Assembly: GCF_013177675.1 (NCBI RefSeq)
Contig: NZ_CP042652.1
Location: 2,666,001-2,730,000 of the forward strand
DNA from: Arcobacter acticola
GTDB taxonomy: Bacteria > Campylobacterota > Campylobacteria > Campylobacterales > Arcobacteraceae
DNA: 64,000 bases
Direction of reading: 5' to 3'
Part shown: in pieces, positions 13,681 to 27,118 of the stretch
How the letters are laid out: each line of letters starts with the position of its first letter
Numbering within the stretch: position 1 is the stretch's first letter
Position numbers and translations under genes: made by a program
The notes under the pieces: generated by a model
What the model saw: only the letters and a program-made list of their open reading frames with translations
Told to the model about the DNA's origin: nothing
Database searches by the model: none

Positions 13681-13768
13681 ATGTAAAACATGAAAACTCT
13701 TGTAGGAGTGACTACCTACTAGTTTATTCACCGAAAGGGTAAGGAATTTTTTCCTTACCCTTTTTTTT
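13681..13768 (+). ncRNA. Predicted ~88-nt antitoxin-like RNA, module 1
   Basis: Runs from the predicted start to the end of a strong terminator. The first ~18 bases (13682-13699) are complementary to the SD/start region of the downstream 20-codon ORF: 13682-13694 pairs with 13810-13822 and AACTC at 13695-13699 with GAGTT at 13803-13807. A hairpin follows (stem 13702-13706/13715-13719, loop AGTGACTA), then the terminator. The loop matches the loop of the hairpin behind the ORF. The RNA is predicted, not shown. Module 2 (18339-18424) has the same plan. I do not recognise a known RNA family. Confidence 0.7.
13734..13768 (+). terminator. Intrinsic terminator of RNA module 1
   Basis: Thirteen-bp perfect stem (13734-13746/13751-13763), TTTT loop, and an 8-T tract at 13761-13768. 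It separates the promoter-proximal RNA from the small ORF. Confidence 0.92.
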
Positions 13769-13812
13769 GTGGGTAGTGTTGGGTGGGAGTGATAAATGAA
13801 AGGAGTTCTTTC

Positions 13813-13875
13813 ATGTTTTACAAAATGGTAGTATTACTTTTAATATTCTTAATATTTGCTATTAAGTTATATTAA
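13813..13875 (+). CDS. 20-residue hydrophobic peptide, putative Ibs-like type I toxin (module 1)
   Basis: ATG at 13813 follows AAAGGAG (13799-13805) by 7 bases. The product MFYKMVVLLLIFLIFAIKLY has one predicted membrane span flanked by Lys. The module 2 peptide aligns over its full length (both contain LLLIFLIFAI and end in Tyr). In size, pattern and ending it resembles the 18-19-residue Ibs toxins of E. coli (recalled from memory). The SD and start codon are complementary to the 5' end of the RNA encoded upstream, and codons 6-7 pair with 13904-13909. Membrane toxicity is inference; a regulatory small membrane protein is the alternative. Confidence 0.72.
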   Translation: MFYKMVVLLLIFLIFAIKLY

Positions 13876-13879
13876 TAAA

Positions 13880-13901
13880 AGGGGGAACTAGTCACTCCCC
13901 T
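13880..13901 (+). other. 3' hairpin of module 1 with antiloop
   Basis: Stem AGGGG/CCCCT (13880-13884/13897-13901) with a 12-base loop containing TAGTCACT, the exact reverse complement of the upstream hairpin loop AGTGACTA (13707-13714). There is no T tract, so it is not a terminator. The same hairpin occurs in module 2 with a compensating base change. Confidence 0.75.
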
Positions 13902-13917
13902 GTTACTACTTACTCAA

Positions 13918-13958
13918 ATCTCAAAACAGATATTTTAAAAGATTGTATAGTTACATTA
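13918..13958 (+). repeat. Direct repeat: folB 3' end, copy 2 (remnant)
   Basis: Forty-one bases matching 13589-13630 inside folB. Read in the folB frame it continues into AGT AAT TAT TAG, giving an alternative FolB C-terminus LSNY. It looks like the displaced original folB end. Only this fragment is present. Confidence 0.88.
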
Positions 13959-14018
13959 AGTAATTATTAGCAAGCTATTGTACCTTTAATATAGGACACT
14001 TTTTGTCTCTTCATAGCA

Positions 14019-14077
14019 TTAACGAAGCATTAATATGGCGTTAACTAAATACTACCTTAAATTAACAGAGAATTAAC
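14019..14077 (+). promoter_or_regulatory. 11-bp-phased TTAAY repeats upstream of porin 1
   Basis: TTAAC at 14019, TTAAT at 14030 and TTAAC at 14041 lie exactly 11 bp apart, with a further pair TTAAC 14062 / TTAAC 14073 also 11 bp apart. Direct repeats at one helical turn are typical binding sites of OmpR/PhoB-type response regulators. Porin 2 has the same arrangement. The regulator is unknown. Confidence 0.6.
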
Positions 14078-14119
14078 AGTCAAATTGTAACTTTAAGAAA
14101 ACTTTAAAATTTAGTGGTG

Positions 14120-14228
14120 TAGAATGGCCGTAACGGAATATCGGAAAAGGTTTAAAACCAAAAGTTTTAGATGAGTTCGCGCGCTCCGATATACTGAAAA
14201 AAGATTTCGAAATTTTAGGAGAACACAA
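14120..14228 (+). promoter_or_regulatory. Porin 1 promoter (-10) and structured 5' leader
   Basis: A -10 box TAGAAT (14120-14125) would start an RNA near 14132, leaving a ~97-base leader before the ATG at 14229. The leader holds an 8-bp outer stem ATATCGGA/TCCGATAT (14138-14145/14185-14192) enclosing a small GGTTT/AAACC hairpin and a GCGCGC run that stands out in this A/T-rich DNA. An AGGAG SD lies at 14217-14221. Porin 2 lacks this leader. It may be a translational control element; nothing more can be said. Confidence 0.5.
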
Positions 14229-15407
14229 ATGAAAAAAATCGCAAAATTAAGTTTAGTAGCTGCTATTGCAGTTTCAGGATTAACGGCAGCTAACGCTACA
14301 CCATTAGAAGAAGCAATCAAAGGTGTTGATGTTTCTGGTACAGTTGTATATAGATATGATGACAGAACTACTGATAATGCAACTGCAGATGGTTTTAGTA
14401 ATGAATCAAACAATAGTTATAAAGTTGCACTTAATTTAAAATCTTCAATTAATGATGATTTAACATTTAATGCAAGAACAATTATCGGTGACAGCACAGG
14501 TATGGCTGAAGTTGGTGATTCTACAACTGGTGCAGATGGTGAAGCAACTTTTGGTTTATCACATGCTAACTTTGCATATACAGGTATCATGAATACAACT
14601 GTTATTGCTGGTAAACAAGCTGTTCCATCTCCATTTGCTGTTCAAGCTGATGCTGCAGGAAATGAAAATACTGGTACAGGTATCACTTCTTTAACAACTG
14701 TAGGTCCTGTTACTGTAGCTGCTACATACTTAAATCAAACTAACTTATTTGGTAGTACAACTGGACAAGATATTGCTGGTTTAGGATTAATGGGTGATTT
14801 AGGTCCTGTAGCATTAGACGGATGGTATTTACAAGCTTTAGAAAGCAATTCAGCAAATGATGATGGAGCTTCATTATATACACTTGGTGCAAAAGCAAAA
14901 GTTGAAATGGTTGAATTAACATCTAGATATTCTGCAATTGATCCATCAGCTTCTGGAATGGATACAGAATCAATTGCAAAAGTTGGAGCAAAAGCTAAAT
15001 TTGGTATCGTTACTGCGTCTGTAGATTATGGTCAATCAAATGATTCAGATAGTTATGCTTCTTTAATTGGTTTAGCTCATAGTGCAACAACATCTCCTGA
15101 TGCTGATGCTGATGTTAATTTACAAGCATGGGCTTTAAACCTTAACAAAAATGATGCACAATTAATTAAAGCAACATTAGGTGTTGATGTATTAGCTAAT
15201 GTAAACTTATCAGCTACTTATGCAGATTTATCAGTAGATTCAGCTGCAAACTCTGATGCTTCTGAATACTATGGTCAATTAACATATAAAATGGGTAAAA
15301 ACTTCATGACATATGCTAGAATTGGTCAAGTTGAGTATGATGTTGCTTCAGGTGTTGCAAGCAAAGATAATACAAGAGGAAGATTACACGTTCAATATAC
15401 TTTCTAA
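14229..15407 (+). CDS. MOMP/PorA-like outer membrane porin 1
   Basis: The 392-residue precursor has a signal peptide ending ...AANA (residues 1-23), then TPLEEAIKGVDVSGTVVYRYD, the same opening as the Campylobacter major outer membrane porin. It has alternating beta-strand pattern throughout and ends with HVQYTF, a terminal Phe typical of BAM-inserted beta-barrels. It should form a general diffusion porin. A second full paralog lies 0.9 kb downstream and a third, broken one at 18.1 kb, so this is a tandem porin array. A strong terminator follows. Upstream are phased TTAAY repeats and a structured leader. Confidence 0.9.
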   Translation: MKKIAKLSLVAAIAVSGLTAANATPLEEAIKGVDVSGTVVYRYDDRTTDNATADGFSNESNNSYKVALNLKSSINDDLTFNARTIIGDSTGMAEVGDSTTGADGEATFGLSHANFAYTGIMNTTVIAGKQAVPSPFAVQADAAGNENTGTGITSLTTVGPVTVAATYLNQTNLFGSTTGQDIAGLGLMGDLGPVALDGWYLQALESNSANDDGASLYTLGAKAKVEMVELTSRYSAIDPSASGMDTESIAKVGAKAKFGIVTASVDYGQSNDSDSYASLIGLAHSATTSPDADADVNLQAWALNLNKNDAQLIKATLGVDVLANVNLSATYADLSVDSAANSDASEYYGQLTYKMGKNFMTYARIGQVEYDVASGVASKDNTRGRLHVQYTF

Positions 15408-15442
15408 TTTGAAAGATAGTATTTAACTACTAAACTTACTTT

Positions 15443-15477
15443 AAAAGGGTTGAAGATTTTTCTTCAACCCTTTTTTT
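15443..15477 (+). terminator. Terminator after porin 1
   Basis: Stem AAAAGGGTTGAAGA with TCTTCAACCCTTTT around a TTTT loop, followed by T7. Confidence 0.93.
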
Positions 15478-15555
15478 ATTCTTAAATTTCTTATTATTAC
15501 TTTACTCTTAAACTATTTATGATAAAATCTAGAAAATTTAAAAAAGGATTTTATC

Positions 15556-16182
15556 TTGAAAAAAGCAATTCTTTCATCAATACTATTATTAAGTTCAACT
15601 TCTATTTTCGCTGATACTACTATGTGTTTCAAAGAAAATCATCAATCTATGTCAACTATTGAAAATACACCTTTAGATGGTGGTATTTGTGCAGGTAAAA
15701 ATACAATAGCAGATATGAAAGCAAAAGGTTGGTTAGTAGATGATATAAAAATATCTCAATCAGCAAACGGTATGAACTTTATCTATGTTCTTAAAACTCC
15801 AGGATCTCAAATGGCGTCACAATCAAATTTTTCAGGAAACCAAGCTGATATGGAAGCTAGAATCTTAGAAAAACTAGAGAAGAAAAAAGAAGCTGAAAAA
15901 GTTGCAAAAGAAATTCAAATTAAAAAAGATTTATCAGTTGATGGTAAAAATATCTATGTTAATAAATGTCAATCATGTCATGGAGAAAAAGGTGAATCAA
16001 CAGTAGGTGGATACTCAAGACCTCTTAATACATTAAGTTCAGAAGAAATGAGACACTCAATTAGTGGATATACAAATGGAACTTATGATAGAGGAAGAGC
16101 ATCAGTTATGAGACCAATTACATCTACTCTTACATATGTAACTTTAGATAAAGTTAGTGCATATTTAGAGTCAATTAAATAA
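15556..16182 (+). CDS. Periplasmic c-type cytochrome
   Basis: The 208-residue protein starts at TTG (SD AAAGGA about 9 bases upstream) and has a signal peptide cut near ...STSIFA. It has an N-terminal Cys-containing region (MCFKENHQ...GGICAGK), a charged helical linker (LEKLEKKKEAEKVAKEIQIKK) and a C-terminal single-heme domain with C138-Q-S-C141-H142. A Met ligand may be in ASVMRPI. It is a mono-heme class I-like cytochrome of unknown partner. It sits between two porin genes and has its own spacing and promoter region; a link to porin function is not implied. Confidence 0.82.
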   Translation: MKKAILSSILLLSSTSIFADTTMCFKENHQSMSTIENTPLDGGICAGKNTIADMKAKGWLVDDIKISQSANGMNFIYVLKTPGSQMASQSNFSGNQADMEARILEKLEKKKEAEKVAKEIQIKKDLSVDGKNIYVNKCQSCHGEKGESTVGGYSRPLNTLSSEEMRHSISGYTNGTYDRGRASVMRPITSTLTYVTLDKVSAYLESIK

Positions 16183-16226
16183 CAAATACTAAAAAATAAA
16201 AGGAATGAATACTTTTTACTCATTAA

Positions 16227-16278
16227 TTAATGAAGTATTAACTAATAATTAACGATTTATAAGTAACTTATAAGTAAC
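16227..16278 (+). promoter_or_regulatory. 11-bp-phased repeats upstream of porin 2
   Basis: TTAAT 16227, TTAAC 16238 and TTAAC 16249 are spaced exactly 11 bp. They are followed by a perfect tandem 11-mer TTATAAGTAAC at 16257-16267 and 16268-16278. This matches the TTAAY phasing upstream of porin 1 and suggests a shared OmpR-like regulator. A -10 like sequence TATAGAAT follows near 16292. Confidence 0.6.
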
Positions 16279-16323
16279 ATTCAGATAATTTTATAGAATA
16301 AATATTACAAAAGGATTACAAAT

Positions 16324-17451
16324 ATGAAAATAACAAAATTAAGTTTAGCTACGATTATTGCAATCGGAAGTTTTTCTGCTGCAAATGCACAAAATTTAGA
16401 AGACGCTATTAAAAATGTAGATATCTCAGGAACAGCAGCATACAGATATAATGACTATGAGACAAGTACAGGATCAAATAACTATAAAGTTGCTACAAAT
16501 TTAAAATCTGGAATCAATGACGATTTAGCTTTTAATTCAAGAATAATTATTGGAAATGCAACTAATCCTGCATCTTTAGATACAGGTGAAGCTGATTCTG
16601 AAGCAGAATTTGGATTATCAGAAGCAAACTTCGCGTATAGTGGTGTACAAAACACAACTATAACTGCAGGTAAACAAGGAATTGCAACTCCATTTACTAT
16701 TGATAGAGATGCAATGGGTAACGAGCAAACAGGAACAGGACTTGTAGCAACTTCAAACCTTGGAATGGTTTCTTTAACTGGTGGATTCTTCAATCAAACA
16801 AATTTAAGCAGTACTGATGGTGAAGCTCCAATAACATCTGGAACAATAGATGGTGGAGAAGATGTATACTTTGCAACTGCAAACCTTACAGTTGAAAATG
16901 TTACTTTAGACTCAACTTATATTAACTTATTAGACACTTTAGATGGTTTTACAGTTGGAGCAAAAGCTAAATTTGATGTTGCAGGTATTCAAATGAATCC
17001 ATATGCAAGATATTCATCAATTAACTTTGATAACTATGCAAAAGACAATACTTTATGGAAAATTGGTACAGATGCACAAATGGGAATCTTTGGAGCATAC
17101 GTAGCATACGGTCAAACAAATGAAGAAGGTGGAGAAACTGGTCTTGACTATAGTTCAGATACAGGAATGGATGACCACTGGAGAGTAACATTAACAGGTG
17201 TAGCTGATGCTTCAGTTGTTTATGCTTCTGTAAATACTCAAGTTACTGATGCAGTAAATGTATCAATTAATTATTCAGATATGAATGTAGGAAGTGCTAA
17301 TACAGCAGGTGATGTAGATCAAAATGAAATTTATGGTCAAGTAAGTTACCAAATGTCTAAAAACTTTAAAACATTTGCAAGACTTGGTCAATACGATCAA
17401 GATGGAGATACTTCAAACATGGGTAGACTTCACGCACAATACTCTTTCTAA
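16324..17451 (+). CDS. MOMP/PorA-like outer membrane porin 2
   Basis: The 375-residue precursor has a signal peptide ending ...AANA (residues 1-22), then QNLEDAIKNVDISGTAAYRYNDY, beta-strand periodicity and a terminal Phe (HAQYSF). It is clearly paralogous to porin 1 (same opening, an NFAY segment near residue 100, and the C-terminal MSKNFKTFARLGQ). SD AAAGGA precedes the ATG. Its 3' end and the bases after the stop (17401-17473) recur at 18181-18253 behind the yefM-yoeB pair. Confidence 0.9.
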   Translation: MKITKLSLATIIAIGSFSAANAQNLEDAIKNVDISGTAAYRYNDYETSTGSNNYKVATNLKSGINDDLAFNSRIIIGNATNPASLDTGEADSEAEFGLSEANFAYSGVQNTTITAGKQGIATPFTIDRDAMGNEQTGTGLVATSNLGMVSLTGGFFNQTNLSSTDGEAPITSGTIDGGEDVYFATANLTVENVTLDSTYINLLDTLDGFTVGAKAKFDVAGIQMNPYARYSSINFDNYAKDNTLWKIGTDAQMGIFGAYVAYGQTNEEGGETGLDYSSDTGMDDHWRVTLTGVADASVVYASVNTQVTDAVNVSINYSDMNVGSANTAGDVDQNEIYGQVSYQMSKNFKTFARLGQYDQDGDTSNMGRLHAQYSF

Positions 17452-17473
17452 TCTGAAAGTTTAAACTACAAAA
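17401..17473 (+). repeat. Direct repeat: porin 3' end, copy 1
   Basis: The last ~50 coding bases of porin 2 and ~22 bases after its stop, repeated with few mismatches at 18181-18253. The two copies bracket yefM-yoeB. Confidence 0.88.
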
Positions 17474-17480
17474 CAAAAAA

Positions 17481-17511
17481 GGCTTAGAGTTAAACTCTAA
17501 GCCTTTTTTTT
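17481..17511 (+). terminator. Terminator after porin 2
   Basis: Ten-bp stem GGCTTAGAGT/ACTCTAAGCC with a TAA loop and an 8-T tract. Confidence 0.93.
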
Positions 17512-17513
17512 AA

Positions 17514-17563
17514 TTGACTTACTTTATAAATTCTGATAAAATCTTTAAAATGACAATATATTG
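17514..17563 (+). promoter_or_regulatory. yefM-yoeB promoter and probable operator
   Basis: TTGACT (17514-17519), 17-bp spacer, TAAAAT (17537-17542). The 10-bp palindrome CAATATATTG (17554-17563), flanked by two TGACA copies, lies at the expected transcript start and just before the SD. YefM/YoeB pairs repress their own promoter through palindromes, so this is the likely operator. Confidence 0.65.
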
Positions 17564-17578
17564 ACAAAAGGATTTAAA

Positions 17579-17830
17579 ATGCAAGCAGTTTTTTACTCAC
17601 AAGCAAGAAATAATCTAAGAGAAATTATAAATAAAGTATGTGATGATTTTGATGAATATATTATTACTACAAAAGATGAGAAATCTGTAGTTTTGATTTC
17701 ATATGAAGAGTATAGTTCAATGAAAGAAACAATATATCTTTTATCTTCAAAAAATAATAGAGATAGATTAAATGATGCCGTAGAACAAATAGAAAACTCA
17801 AAATTTCTTAAAAAAGAAATTGATTTATGA
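17579..17830 (+). CDS. yefM: YefM-family antitoxin (Phd/YefM)
   Basis: An 83-residue protein from the ATG at 17579, chosen because AAAGGA lies 8 bases upstream and MQAVFYSQARNNLREIINKV aligns with the YefM start. The upstream TTG at 17561 would add six residues with no family support. The N-terminal Phd-like fold binds DNA and represses the operon. The acidic C-terminal part (KNNRDRLNDAVEQI...KKEIDL) would wrap the toxin. The stop TGA overlaps the yoeB ATG by 4 bases (ATGA). Confidence 0.93.
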   Translation: MQAVFYSQARNNLREIINKVCDDFDEYIITTKDEKSVVLISYEEYSSMKETIYLLSSKNNRDRLNDAVEQIENSKFLKKEIDL

Positions 17831-25488: not shown

Positions 25489-26955
25489 TTATGCAGCTAC
25501 TGGTGTAGCATTAACAGGTTCTTTATCAAGTACTCTTCCACATCTAATAGTTTTATAAATATTATATGCGAACATAAAGAATCCGATTAGGTATAGTAAC
25601 CCACCAACAGCTCTGATTGTATAATATGGATGTAATACAGTAACTGTATCAATGAATGAGTAAACTAATGAACCATATTCATCGTAAGCTCTCCACATCA
25701 TACCTTGTGTAATTCCAGCAATCCACATAGAAGTAAAGTATAAAACGATACCTGTAGTTTGTAACCAGAATTGTGTATCCATTAATGATTTAGAGTAAAT
25801 TTCTCTTTTGTACATTCTTGGAACCATATGGAATAATGATGCCATAATCATAAATACAACCCATCCTAAAACACCATCATGTACGTGTCCTGGAATCCAG
25901 TCAGTAAAGTGTGCAATAGCATTTACAGATTTAATAGCTTGAATTGGACCTTCAATAGTTGATAACATATAGAAAGTTGAAGCTAATACCATAAATTTAA
26001 TTAGTGTATTTGATTGTAATTGTTGCCACTCACCCTTCATTGTTAAAAGCATATTAATAGCTGATCCCCATGATGGTAAAATTAAAACAACAGACATTAC
26101 AGAACCCATAGTTTGCATCCAGTCAGGAACAGTTGAATATAATAAGTGGTGTCCACCAGCCCATAAATATACAAACATTAATCCCCAGAACGCTAAGATA
26201 GAAAGTTTATAAGAATAAACATTTTGTCCAGATTCTTTTGGTAAAAAGTAATAAATTAAAGCAATAATTGGAGTTGTGAAAACGAATGCAACAGCATTGT
26301 GTCCATACCACCATTGTACTAATGCATCATTTGTACCTGAATACATTGATACAGAGTGAAGCCATGAACCATAACCTGAAACTAAAGCTGTTGGAACTTC
26401 CATATTATTAAATAAATATAACATTGCAATTGCAATAAAAGTAGCAATGAAATACCATAAAGAAATATATAAAGTTCTTTCTCTTCTAATTCCGATTAAT
26501 CCAAAAATTGAAATACCCCATAAAACCCACCATAAAACAACTAAAATGTCTAATGGCCACTCTAATTCTGCATACTCTTTTGAAGTTGTGTAACCCATGA
26601 AAAGTGTAACAACAGCTAAAAGAATTGTGATAAAATATAACACAAAGTGTAATTTTGCGATAGCCATTAAAAAAGGTGACTCTTTTAATGAAACTTTTAA
26701 TACCCTTTGTCCAATATAATACCAAGCAGCAAAAACACCACTTAAAGTAAAACCAAAAGCAACACCGTTAGTGTGTAAAGGTCTTAATCTACTGAAAGTA
26801 CCATATTCTCCAGCTAAATAATTTAACTGTGGAAACGCCAATTGCAACGCAAGTACAACACCAATAGTCATACCTATGATACCAAACAGAATTGTTGCAA
26901 ATGTAAACGCTTTTGCAACTGAGTAATCGTACTCAATTTGTGCACCGTTTTGCAT
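25489..26955 (-). CDS. ccoN: cbb3-type oxidase catalytic subunit CcoN
   Basis: About 488 residues with a dozen membrane spans. Heme/copper ligands are visible: HTNGVAFGF (low-spin heme His), WWYGHNAVAFVF, GGHHLLYSTVPDW (CuB) and HVHDGVLGW. It reduces oxygen with high affinity, suited to microaerobic growth. The start MQNGAQIEYDY at 26955 is preferred; a TTG immediately before would make one extra Met. AGGAGGAGA precedes it. The ~160-base upstream region contains a pair of TTAAC repeats 11 bp apart (27048 and 27059, plus-strand text). Confidence 0.98.
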   Translation of the reverse strand: MQNGAQIEYDYSVAKAFTFATILFGIIGMTIGVVLALQLAFPQLNYLAGEYGTFSRLRPLHTNGVAFGFTLSGVFAAWYYIGQRVLKVSLKESPFLMAIAKLHFVLYFITILLAVVTLFMGYTTSKEYAELEWPLDILVVLWWVLWGISIFGLIGIRRERTLYISLWYFIATFIAIAMLYLFNNMEVPTALVSGYGSWLHSVSMYSGTNDALVQWWYGHNAVAFVFTTPIIALIYYFLPKESGQNVYSYKLSILAFWGLMFVYLWAGGHHLLYSTVPDWMQTMGSVMSVVLILPSWGSAINMLLTMKGEWQQLQSNTLIKFMVLASTFYMLSTIEGPIQAIKSVNAIAHFTDWIPGHVHDGVLGWVVFMIMASLFHMVPRMYKREIYSKSLMDTQFWLQTTGIVLYFTSMWIAGITQGMMWRAYDEYGSLVYSFIDTVTVLHPYYTIRAVGGLLYLIGFFMFAYNIYKTIRCGRVLDKEPVNATPVAA

Positions 26956-27118
26956 CAATCTCCTCCTACTAATTTTATATACAAGTCACAAAAATGTCAC
27001 TCATTGAAGTAATCATAGCTAAGAGAAACTTAAAAGATACAAAAAAATTAACAGAAAATTAACAATAAAAACTAATTTTAATTATAATTTTTACTTATAA
27101 ATTAAGACATTTTTTATC

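Follow-up and report, generated by a model that had tools for sequence, protein, structure and literature searches.

The two porin genes in the window (the whole 64,000-nucleotide stretch of Arcobacter acticola DNA that was analysed) are both preceded by TTAAY words repeated in steps of exactly 11 bp. One can ask whether such words are half-sites of a common regulator and, if so, which genes that regulator would serve. The features of the porin region that bear on this question are as follows.

14019..14045, + strand: distal TTAAY triplet, rungs -74, -63 and -52 relative to the -35 box (from sequence)
14060..14077, + strand: core operator AATTAACAGAGAATTAAC, rungs -31 and -20 (strict site, in 22 genomes)
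14092..14108, + strand: TTTAAGAAAACTTTAAA box at -35, HP1043/HsrA-like (footprint of 28 promoters)
14120..14125, + strand: presumed -10 element TAGAAT, 16 bp from the second TTAA of the box (predicted from sequence)
14229..15407, + strand: porin 1 (family models Campylo_MOMP and Porin_4)
16227..16253, + strand: porin 2 TTAAY triplet (from sequence)
16257..16278, + strand: tandem TTATAAGTAAC with an 11-bp period (conserved part of the porin 2 promoter, 3/3 sequences)
16324..17451, + strand: porin 2 (family model Campylo_MOMP)

All words listed by the initial annotation are present at the positions it gave: TTAAY at 14019, 14030 and 14041, at 14062 and 14073, and at 16227, 16238 and 16249, as well as TTAAC at 27048 and 27059. 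The perfect tandem is likewise there, as copies 16257-16267 and 16268-16278. The triplet pattern was found four times in the window (two places, each on both strands), with 0.04 hits expected. The whole genome (a single contig of 3,019,071 bases, ca. 3.02 Mb) yielded ten hits, i.e., five places, against four hits for a reversed control. All five places are intergenic, and two of them are in the window: one is located before a TonB receptor and beside a Crp-like regulator gene (L002, genome position 649223), one between ResB-like and methyltransferase genes, two before porin 1 and porin 2, and one between TypA-like and EptA-like genes (the neighbouring genes presumably bear these names, which come from sequence knowledge). 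In 464 kb of the genome that include the window and contain 42 kb of intergenic DNA, the two porin triplets were the only ones, and shuffling of the same intergenic DNA produced 0.08 triplets. The equal density in random intergenic DNA that, according to the initial annotation, would speak against a special role of the triplets was thus seen neither in the genome scan nor in the shuffles.

Single pairs of such words carry less weight. The G+C content of the window is 28.4%, and TTAA pairs at a distance of 11 bp are enriched ca. twofold in intergenic DNA generally. Since AATT and TATA pairs likewise peak at 11 bp in the intergenic DNA of 864 kb of the genome, a general A/T periodicity makes a single pair less surprising. 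The periodicity had appeared TTAA-specific in 464 kb; this view was dropped after the 864-kb analysis, and the signal in genome G013 was weaker. The bare pattern TTAAC-N6-TTAAC was also rejected as a regulon marker, for its 20 sites (16 of them intergenic by the ORF caller) stood against 29 in the reversed control, and N6 belongs to a series of 335 pairs over gaps 0-25, or ca. 13 per gap. The short word TTAAC alone is insufficient to define a regulon.

The porin 1 promoter was compared across 28 loci, the own genome included, out of 30 fetched; a porin 2 orthologue (L020) and a locus from another genus (L038) were left out. The sequence TTTAAG-N5-TTTAA is exact in 27 of them, and the remaining one has ATTAAG. 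Between -80 and -5 relative to the box TTAA, 85 of the 109 TTAAY words occupy positions -9, -20, -31, -41/-42, -52, -63 and -74, and most of the off-register words (14) are one and the same word at -24 inside TTAATTAAC. A TTAAY pair with an 11-bp step was present in 23 of the 28 promoters (shuffles: mean 0.28, largest 2). Which rungs are filled varies by species while the register is kept, and the kept register is owed in part to shared descent. The distal triplet turned out to be the more variable part, with rungs -74, -63 and -52 occupied in 5, 8 and 14 promoters, respectively; the most conserved elements are the 14062/14073 pair and the box at 14092-14108, the latter not mentioned before. 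Nine porin loci from beyond the genus were also read: box and pair are both kept in two of them (L210 and L211), and a third (L209) has a box-like repeat only. Downstream, the porin 1 5′ leader is conserved at 14134-14196 and contains a predicted stem with arms 14134-14145 and 14185-14196, in which 5 of 15 predicted pairs are changed on both sides in 17 of 30 leaders; an Rfam search of 13700-17700 returned no family above the gathering score.

The porin 2 triplet was discarded as a conserved element, being absent in L062 (whose protein is 83% identical) and partial in L063. A single mismatch separates its second pair (16236-16253) from the operator described below. A TTATAAGTAA-type tandem followed by a GATAA word is found in the porin 2 promoters of the own genome, L062 and L063. 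The interval between the porins holds a gene for a small protein with a cytochrome c domain (15556-16182).

The sequence AATTAAC-N4-AATTAAC, a repeat in direct orientation with an 11-bp step, forms the conserved core of the porin 1 promoter. A second copy is located upstream of a gene that we take, partly from sequence knowledge, to be ccoN:

25489..26958, - strand: ccoN, cbb3 oxidase subunit (named after the initial annotation and from sequence knowledge)
27012..27034, - strand: TTTAAG-N5-CTTAG-like element and presumed -10 element TATGAT of ccoN (predicted)
27046..27063, + strand, opposite to the gene: core operator AATTAACAGAAAATTAAC (strict site)

The two copies differ at 1 of 18 positions. 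In each, two half-sites follow one another head to tail at a distance of about one helical turn (11 bp), as in OmpR/PhoB-type sites. Across 31 genomes of the genus, 96 strict sites were counted, compared with 12 for the reversed control. When the gap was varied from 0 to 14, 154 pairs were obtained, 96 at N4 and 58 at the 14 other gaps together; among the 56 of these 58 that were listed, 25 have N5. Since the reversed control exceeds the pattern when gaps 0-14 are pooled, the evidence lies in the peak at N4 rather than in the co-occurrence of the two words. At the ccoN site, some overlapping N5 pairs indicate a third repeat. As promoters within one genus, these sequences are non-independent samples.

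The site lies upstream of genes: 51 of 52 occurrences inspected are intergenic, and the remaining one (L239) precedes a TonB start. A search of 864 kb of the own genome that allowed up to one mismatch gave five sites, all of them intergenic, in front of nosZ, porin 1, ccoN, a NosL fusion gene and porin 2. At the two-mismatch level, 41 sites turned up in the same DNA, 27 of them genic, and this sets the specificity limit of the operator search.

The strict site is present before ccoN in all 31 genomes, and an 11-bp TTAA pair is kept 103-106 bp upstream of ccoN in each of the 30 regions read; extra ccoN copies in G021 and G029 are without the strict site. Before porin 1, 23 strict sites were found in 22 of the 29 genomes with a porin 1 match, and seven of these genomes have none there. 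Across the order, where 22 of 27 ccoN starts were found, the best match has two mismatches in 3 promoters, three or four in 17 and five in 2. Thus, ccoN promoters beyond the genus are mostly without the site, and its conservation is claimed within the genus only. The control of the OmpR/PhoB type that had been suggested for both porins and perhaps ccoN is supported in part: a direct repeat common to porin 1 and ccoN is conserved in the genus, and the porin 2 triplet is not.

The 52 occurrences inspected individually (50 in other genomes of the genus and 2 in the own one) and the others, assigned by porin 1 and ccoN coordinates, give the following distribution of the 96 sites: ccoN 31, porin 1 23, TonB receptor genes 23, nosZ 5, NosL genes 5, PCuAC genes 4 and others 5. 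The porin and ccoN part of the set had been foreseen; the copper and cuproenzyme genes that mainly make it up had been missed. Family models were run on representatives only, and the remaining genes were named by sequence likeness. A representative TonB receptor matched the TonB-copper model TIGR01778 with 495.9 bits (cut-off 472.45), and another, truncated one scored 116.8 bits, well under that cut-off. NosL (PF05573) was matched by two representative proteins and PCuAC (PF04314) by one; a truncated NosZ reached 598.5 bits with TIGR04246 (cut-off 625). The motif C..RMDP is present in 19 of 22 TonB receptors scanned and, by inspection, in the 23rd; of the three receptors without it, one scores best with siderophore receptors. 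C..RMDP is presumably copper-linked, as the sole receptor over the TIGR01778 cut-off carries it. The five other sites comprise three beside a YceD-like gene (L221, L243 and L258), where the strict site lies 13 bp away in reverse orientation, one in a helicase-like/chemoreceptor-like interval and one before a small CGM-containing protein, for which no Pfam match was obtained. Apart from these 5 of 96, the sites precede genes of copper uptake or delivery proteins and cuproenzymes, porin 1 being by name no copper protein.

The site was also searched for in 60 genomes over the order. Thirteen have the strict site; nine of them are outside the family and hold 13 sites, and the reversed control gave 3 in the 55 genomes outside the family. 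These 13 sites are located before nosZ (three, one scored genic by the ORF caller), ccoN (one), a NosL-like gene (one), TonB receptors (three, two with C..RMDP), a porin (two overlapping sites) and others (three, two of which are at contig ends of one genome and may be one site). Counting the porin once, 9 of 13 sites precede nosZ, ccoN, TonB or NosL-like genes or a porin. One of the receptors is followed by what is presumably a NosL-like gene and another by presumed TauE/SafE-like and heavy-metal-domain-like genes, all named from sequence knowledge. The two overlapping operators at the porin outside the family (G059; L300, L312 and L353) form three 11-bp repeats in reversed orientation.

Judged from sequence, the site is conserved in its letters, its spacing and its place before ccoN, porin 1 and a copper-related gene set. 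We are confident that the operator and its gene set are real. The gene set suggests a copper and cuproenzyme regulon, for which copper would be the signal to judge by gene content alone. A search of titles and abstract openings of open-licence papers, with subscription papers and preprints outside its scope, returned no description of this operator or of a Campylobacterota copper-acquisition regulon.

The comparison with HsrA/CosR motifs that the initial annotation had proposed provides the best lead to a regulator. A CosR/HsrA orthologue is encoded at ca. 558 kb of the genome (L090); together with the Campylo_MOMP porins, it suggests a member of the Campylobacterota, probably of the Arcobacteraceae. 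Its protein aligns with the solved C. jejuni CosR chain 8UVX with 386 bits and with 2HQR, which we take to be HP1043, with 283 bits. It shares 170 of 221 residues with 8UVX and 73 of 77 over the DNA-contacting region 145-221, residues 184-199 being identical, and the own-genome and G011 proteins are 97.8% identical to each other. Position 51 is an aspartate (D51) in the orthologue and a serine in 8UVX; in C. jejuni CosR, it is reported as N (PMC3139631). A CosS-like kinase gene adjoins cosR in both genomes inspected (L090 and L274), and CosS homologues in A. butzleri as well as CosS-CosR phosphotransfer in C. fetus have been described (PMC3938529). The cosR gene has its own conserved upstream TTAA-N7-TTAA box, similar to the -35 box of porin 1, in the three genomes inspected (L090, L285 and L274), as autoregulation would predict.

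The natural cmeABC site (DNA1) contains TTAAC and TTAAG 10 bp apart, and an engineered rearrangement of it with an 11-bp step, CosR-DNA2, is bound with a KD of 2.5 nM in a complex whose crystal structure is available (PMC10936212). CosR-DNA2 matches our operator at 12 of 14 fixed positions. The published 21-bp C. jejuni CosR consensus (PMC3139631) resembles the operator, by eye, only loosely. HP1043 recognises TTTAAG-N5-TTTAAG (PMC5253667); the porin 1 -35 box fits this repeat except for its last base, A instead of G, and, as for HP1043, lies just upstream of the -10 element, while the AATTAAC core departs from it and agrees with CosR-DNA2. Both types of site are thus present in the porin 1 promoter. 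The CosR orthologue, a candidate on grounds of sequence, has about an even chance of being the reader of the operator.

The same operator and the same copper and respiration regulon could be read by another OmpR-family protein, e.g., a dedicated copper-limitation two-component system, and we consider this a serious, if somewhat less than even, possibility. The genome has 38 Trans_reg_C matches, 37 of them over the cut-off, and 11 of 14 G011 regulators are reciprocal best hits among 30 fetched from G000, so several regulators besides CosR are conserved. The main argument for a different reader is the function of the reported targets: for H. pylori HP1043, these are mainly tRNA, ribosomal, rpoD and energy genes (PMC5253667), and for C. 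jejuni CosR, oxidative-stress and efflux genes, unlike the gene set found here. Against it, no regulator gene recurs beside the targets in neighbourhoods of up to 20 kb. Single response-regulator genes were seen in 6 of 17 neighbourhoods, none recurrent, a count that includes two regulators in one neighbourhood and a weak partial match in L280; order-level neighbourhoods gave one weak regulator match only. In G021, cosRS and another regulator are within ca. 3 kb of the copper receptor's site. CosR has a published DNA that matches the site (PMC10936212).

A reader of another kind, CemR of the HP1021 family, would tie the regulon to oxygen and energy metabolism rather than to copper. The respiratory targets ccoN and nosZ would suit it. 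Respiratory genes escape control in CemR mutants of A. butzleri and C. jejuni, and for H. pylori, ccoN-Q has been reported (PMC11334517), but the HP1021 boxes GGTTGCA and GGTTTCT (PMC10593804) misfit the strict GTTAAT, and the TonB, NosL and PCuAC genes point to copper. A CemR orthologue was looked for in this analysis and none was identified; we consider this reading improbable.

Campylobacterota RpoD promoters show an 11-bp A/T periodicity. That the words merely reflect this periodicity and aid polymerase contact without a specific regulator agrees with the common 11-bp peak of TTAA, AATT and TATA pairs and with the frequent occurrence of TTAA 15-16 and 26-27 bp ahead of -10-like words in intergenic DNA, but is highly improbable given the strict C and flanking A, the single spacing, the return of the site at one set of genes in 31 genomes and beyond the family, and the reversed and distant site at ccoN.

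Known systems share parts of this arrangement. With CosR at C. jejuni cmeABC, it has in common TTAAC/TTAAG half-sites as direct repeats and a near-identical DNA-contacting region; it differs in its step (11 instead of 10 bp) and in the aspartate 51 and adjacent kinase of the orthologue. OmpR itself has a site of different sequence at ompF and ompC. OmpR at ompF/ompC (PMC3139631) is similar in that a member of the OmpR family has several sites in front of porin genes, whereas the gene set here is one of copper and respiration. The NssR/FNR-type site TTAACnnnnGTTAA (PMC1274295), recognised by a Campylobacterota regulator, also has a TTAAC half-site, in an inverted and not a direct repeat.

Promoter geometry was scanned in 41 promoters (24 TonB, 7 nosZ, 6 NosL and 4 PCuAC) with a simple search for -10-like words. 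Such a word starts 10-18 bp past the site in 14 of them (7 TonB, 5 NosL and 2 PCuAC) and in 27, most TonB promoters included, no such word starts within this range; at nosZ, it begins at 42 in five of seven promoters. In the mechanism that we propose, a regulator dimer would bind AATTAAC-N4-AATTAAC with both halves of the direct repeat on one helix face. Where the site lies 10-18 bp before the -10 element (NosL, PCuAC and some TonB promoters), it would replace the -35 box and the regulator would act as an activator. At porin 1, nosZ and ccoN, the site would stand further upstream of another TTAA-type element, and the extra rungs at porin 1 could allow a cooperative array. The regulon would link the entry of copper and its delivery (porin, TonB receptors, NosL and PCuAC) to the cbb3 oxidase and N2O reductase and would probably be raised under copper shortage. 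The most likely reader would be the CosR/HsrA orthologue with its adjacent CosS-like kinase. The chances seem to us evenly balanced that a response regulator of the OmpR/PhoB type recognises the phased TTAAY words as its half-sites in a copper and cuproenzyme regulon, with this orthologue as the likely reader.

We tentatively propose, at less than even confidence, that through this operator the CosR two-component system runs an undescribed copper-supply regulon of the Campylobacterales, made up of porin, receptors, chaperones, cbb3 oxidase and N2O reductase. To our knowledge, few bacterial regulons have been described that serve the acquisition of copper rather than its detoxification. CosR/HsrA is an essential regulator, and an exact candidate operator is now on hand for it. 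If the proposal is true, CosR would be a regulator of copper and respiration rather than primarily of oxidative stress, and a single circuit would tie copper entry to N2O reductase and to the main oxidase used under microaerobic conditions; the group concerned has numerous environmental members and some pathogens.
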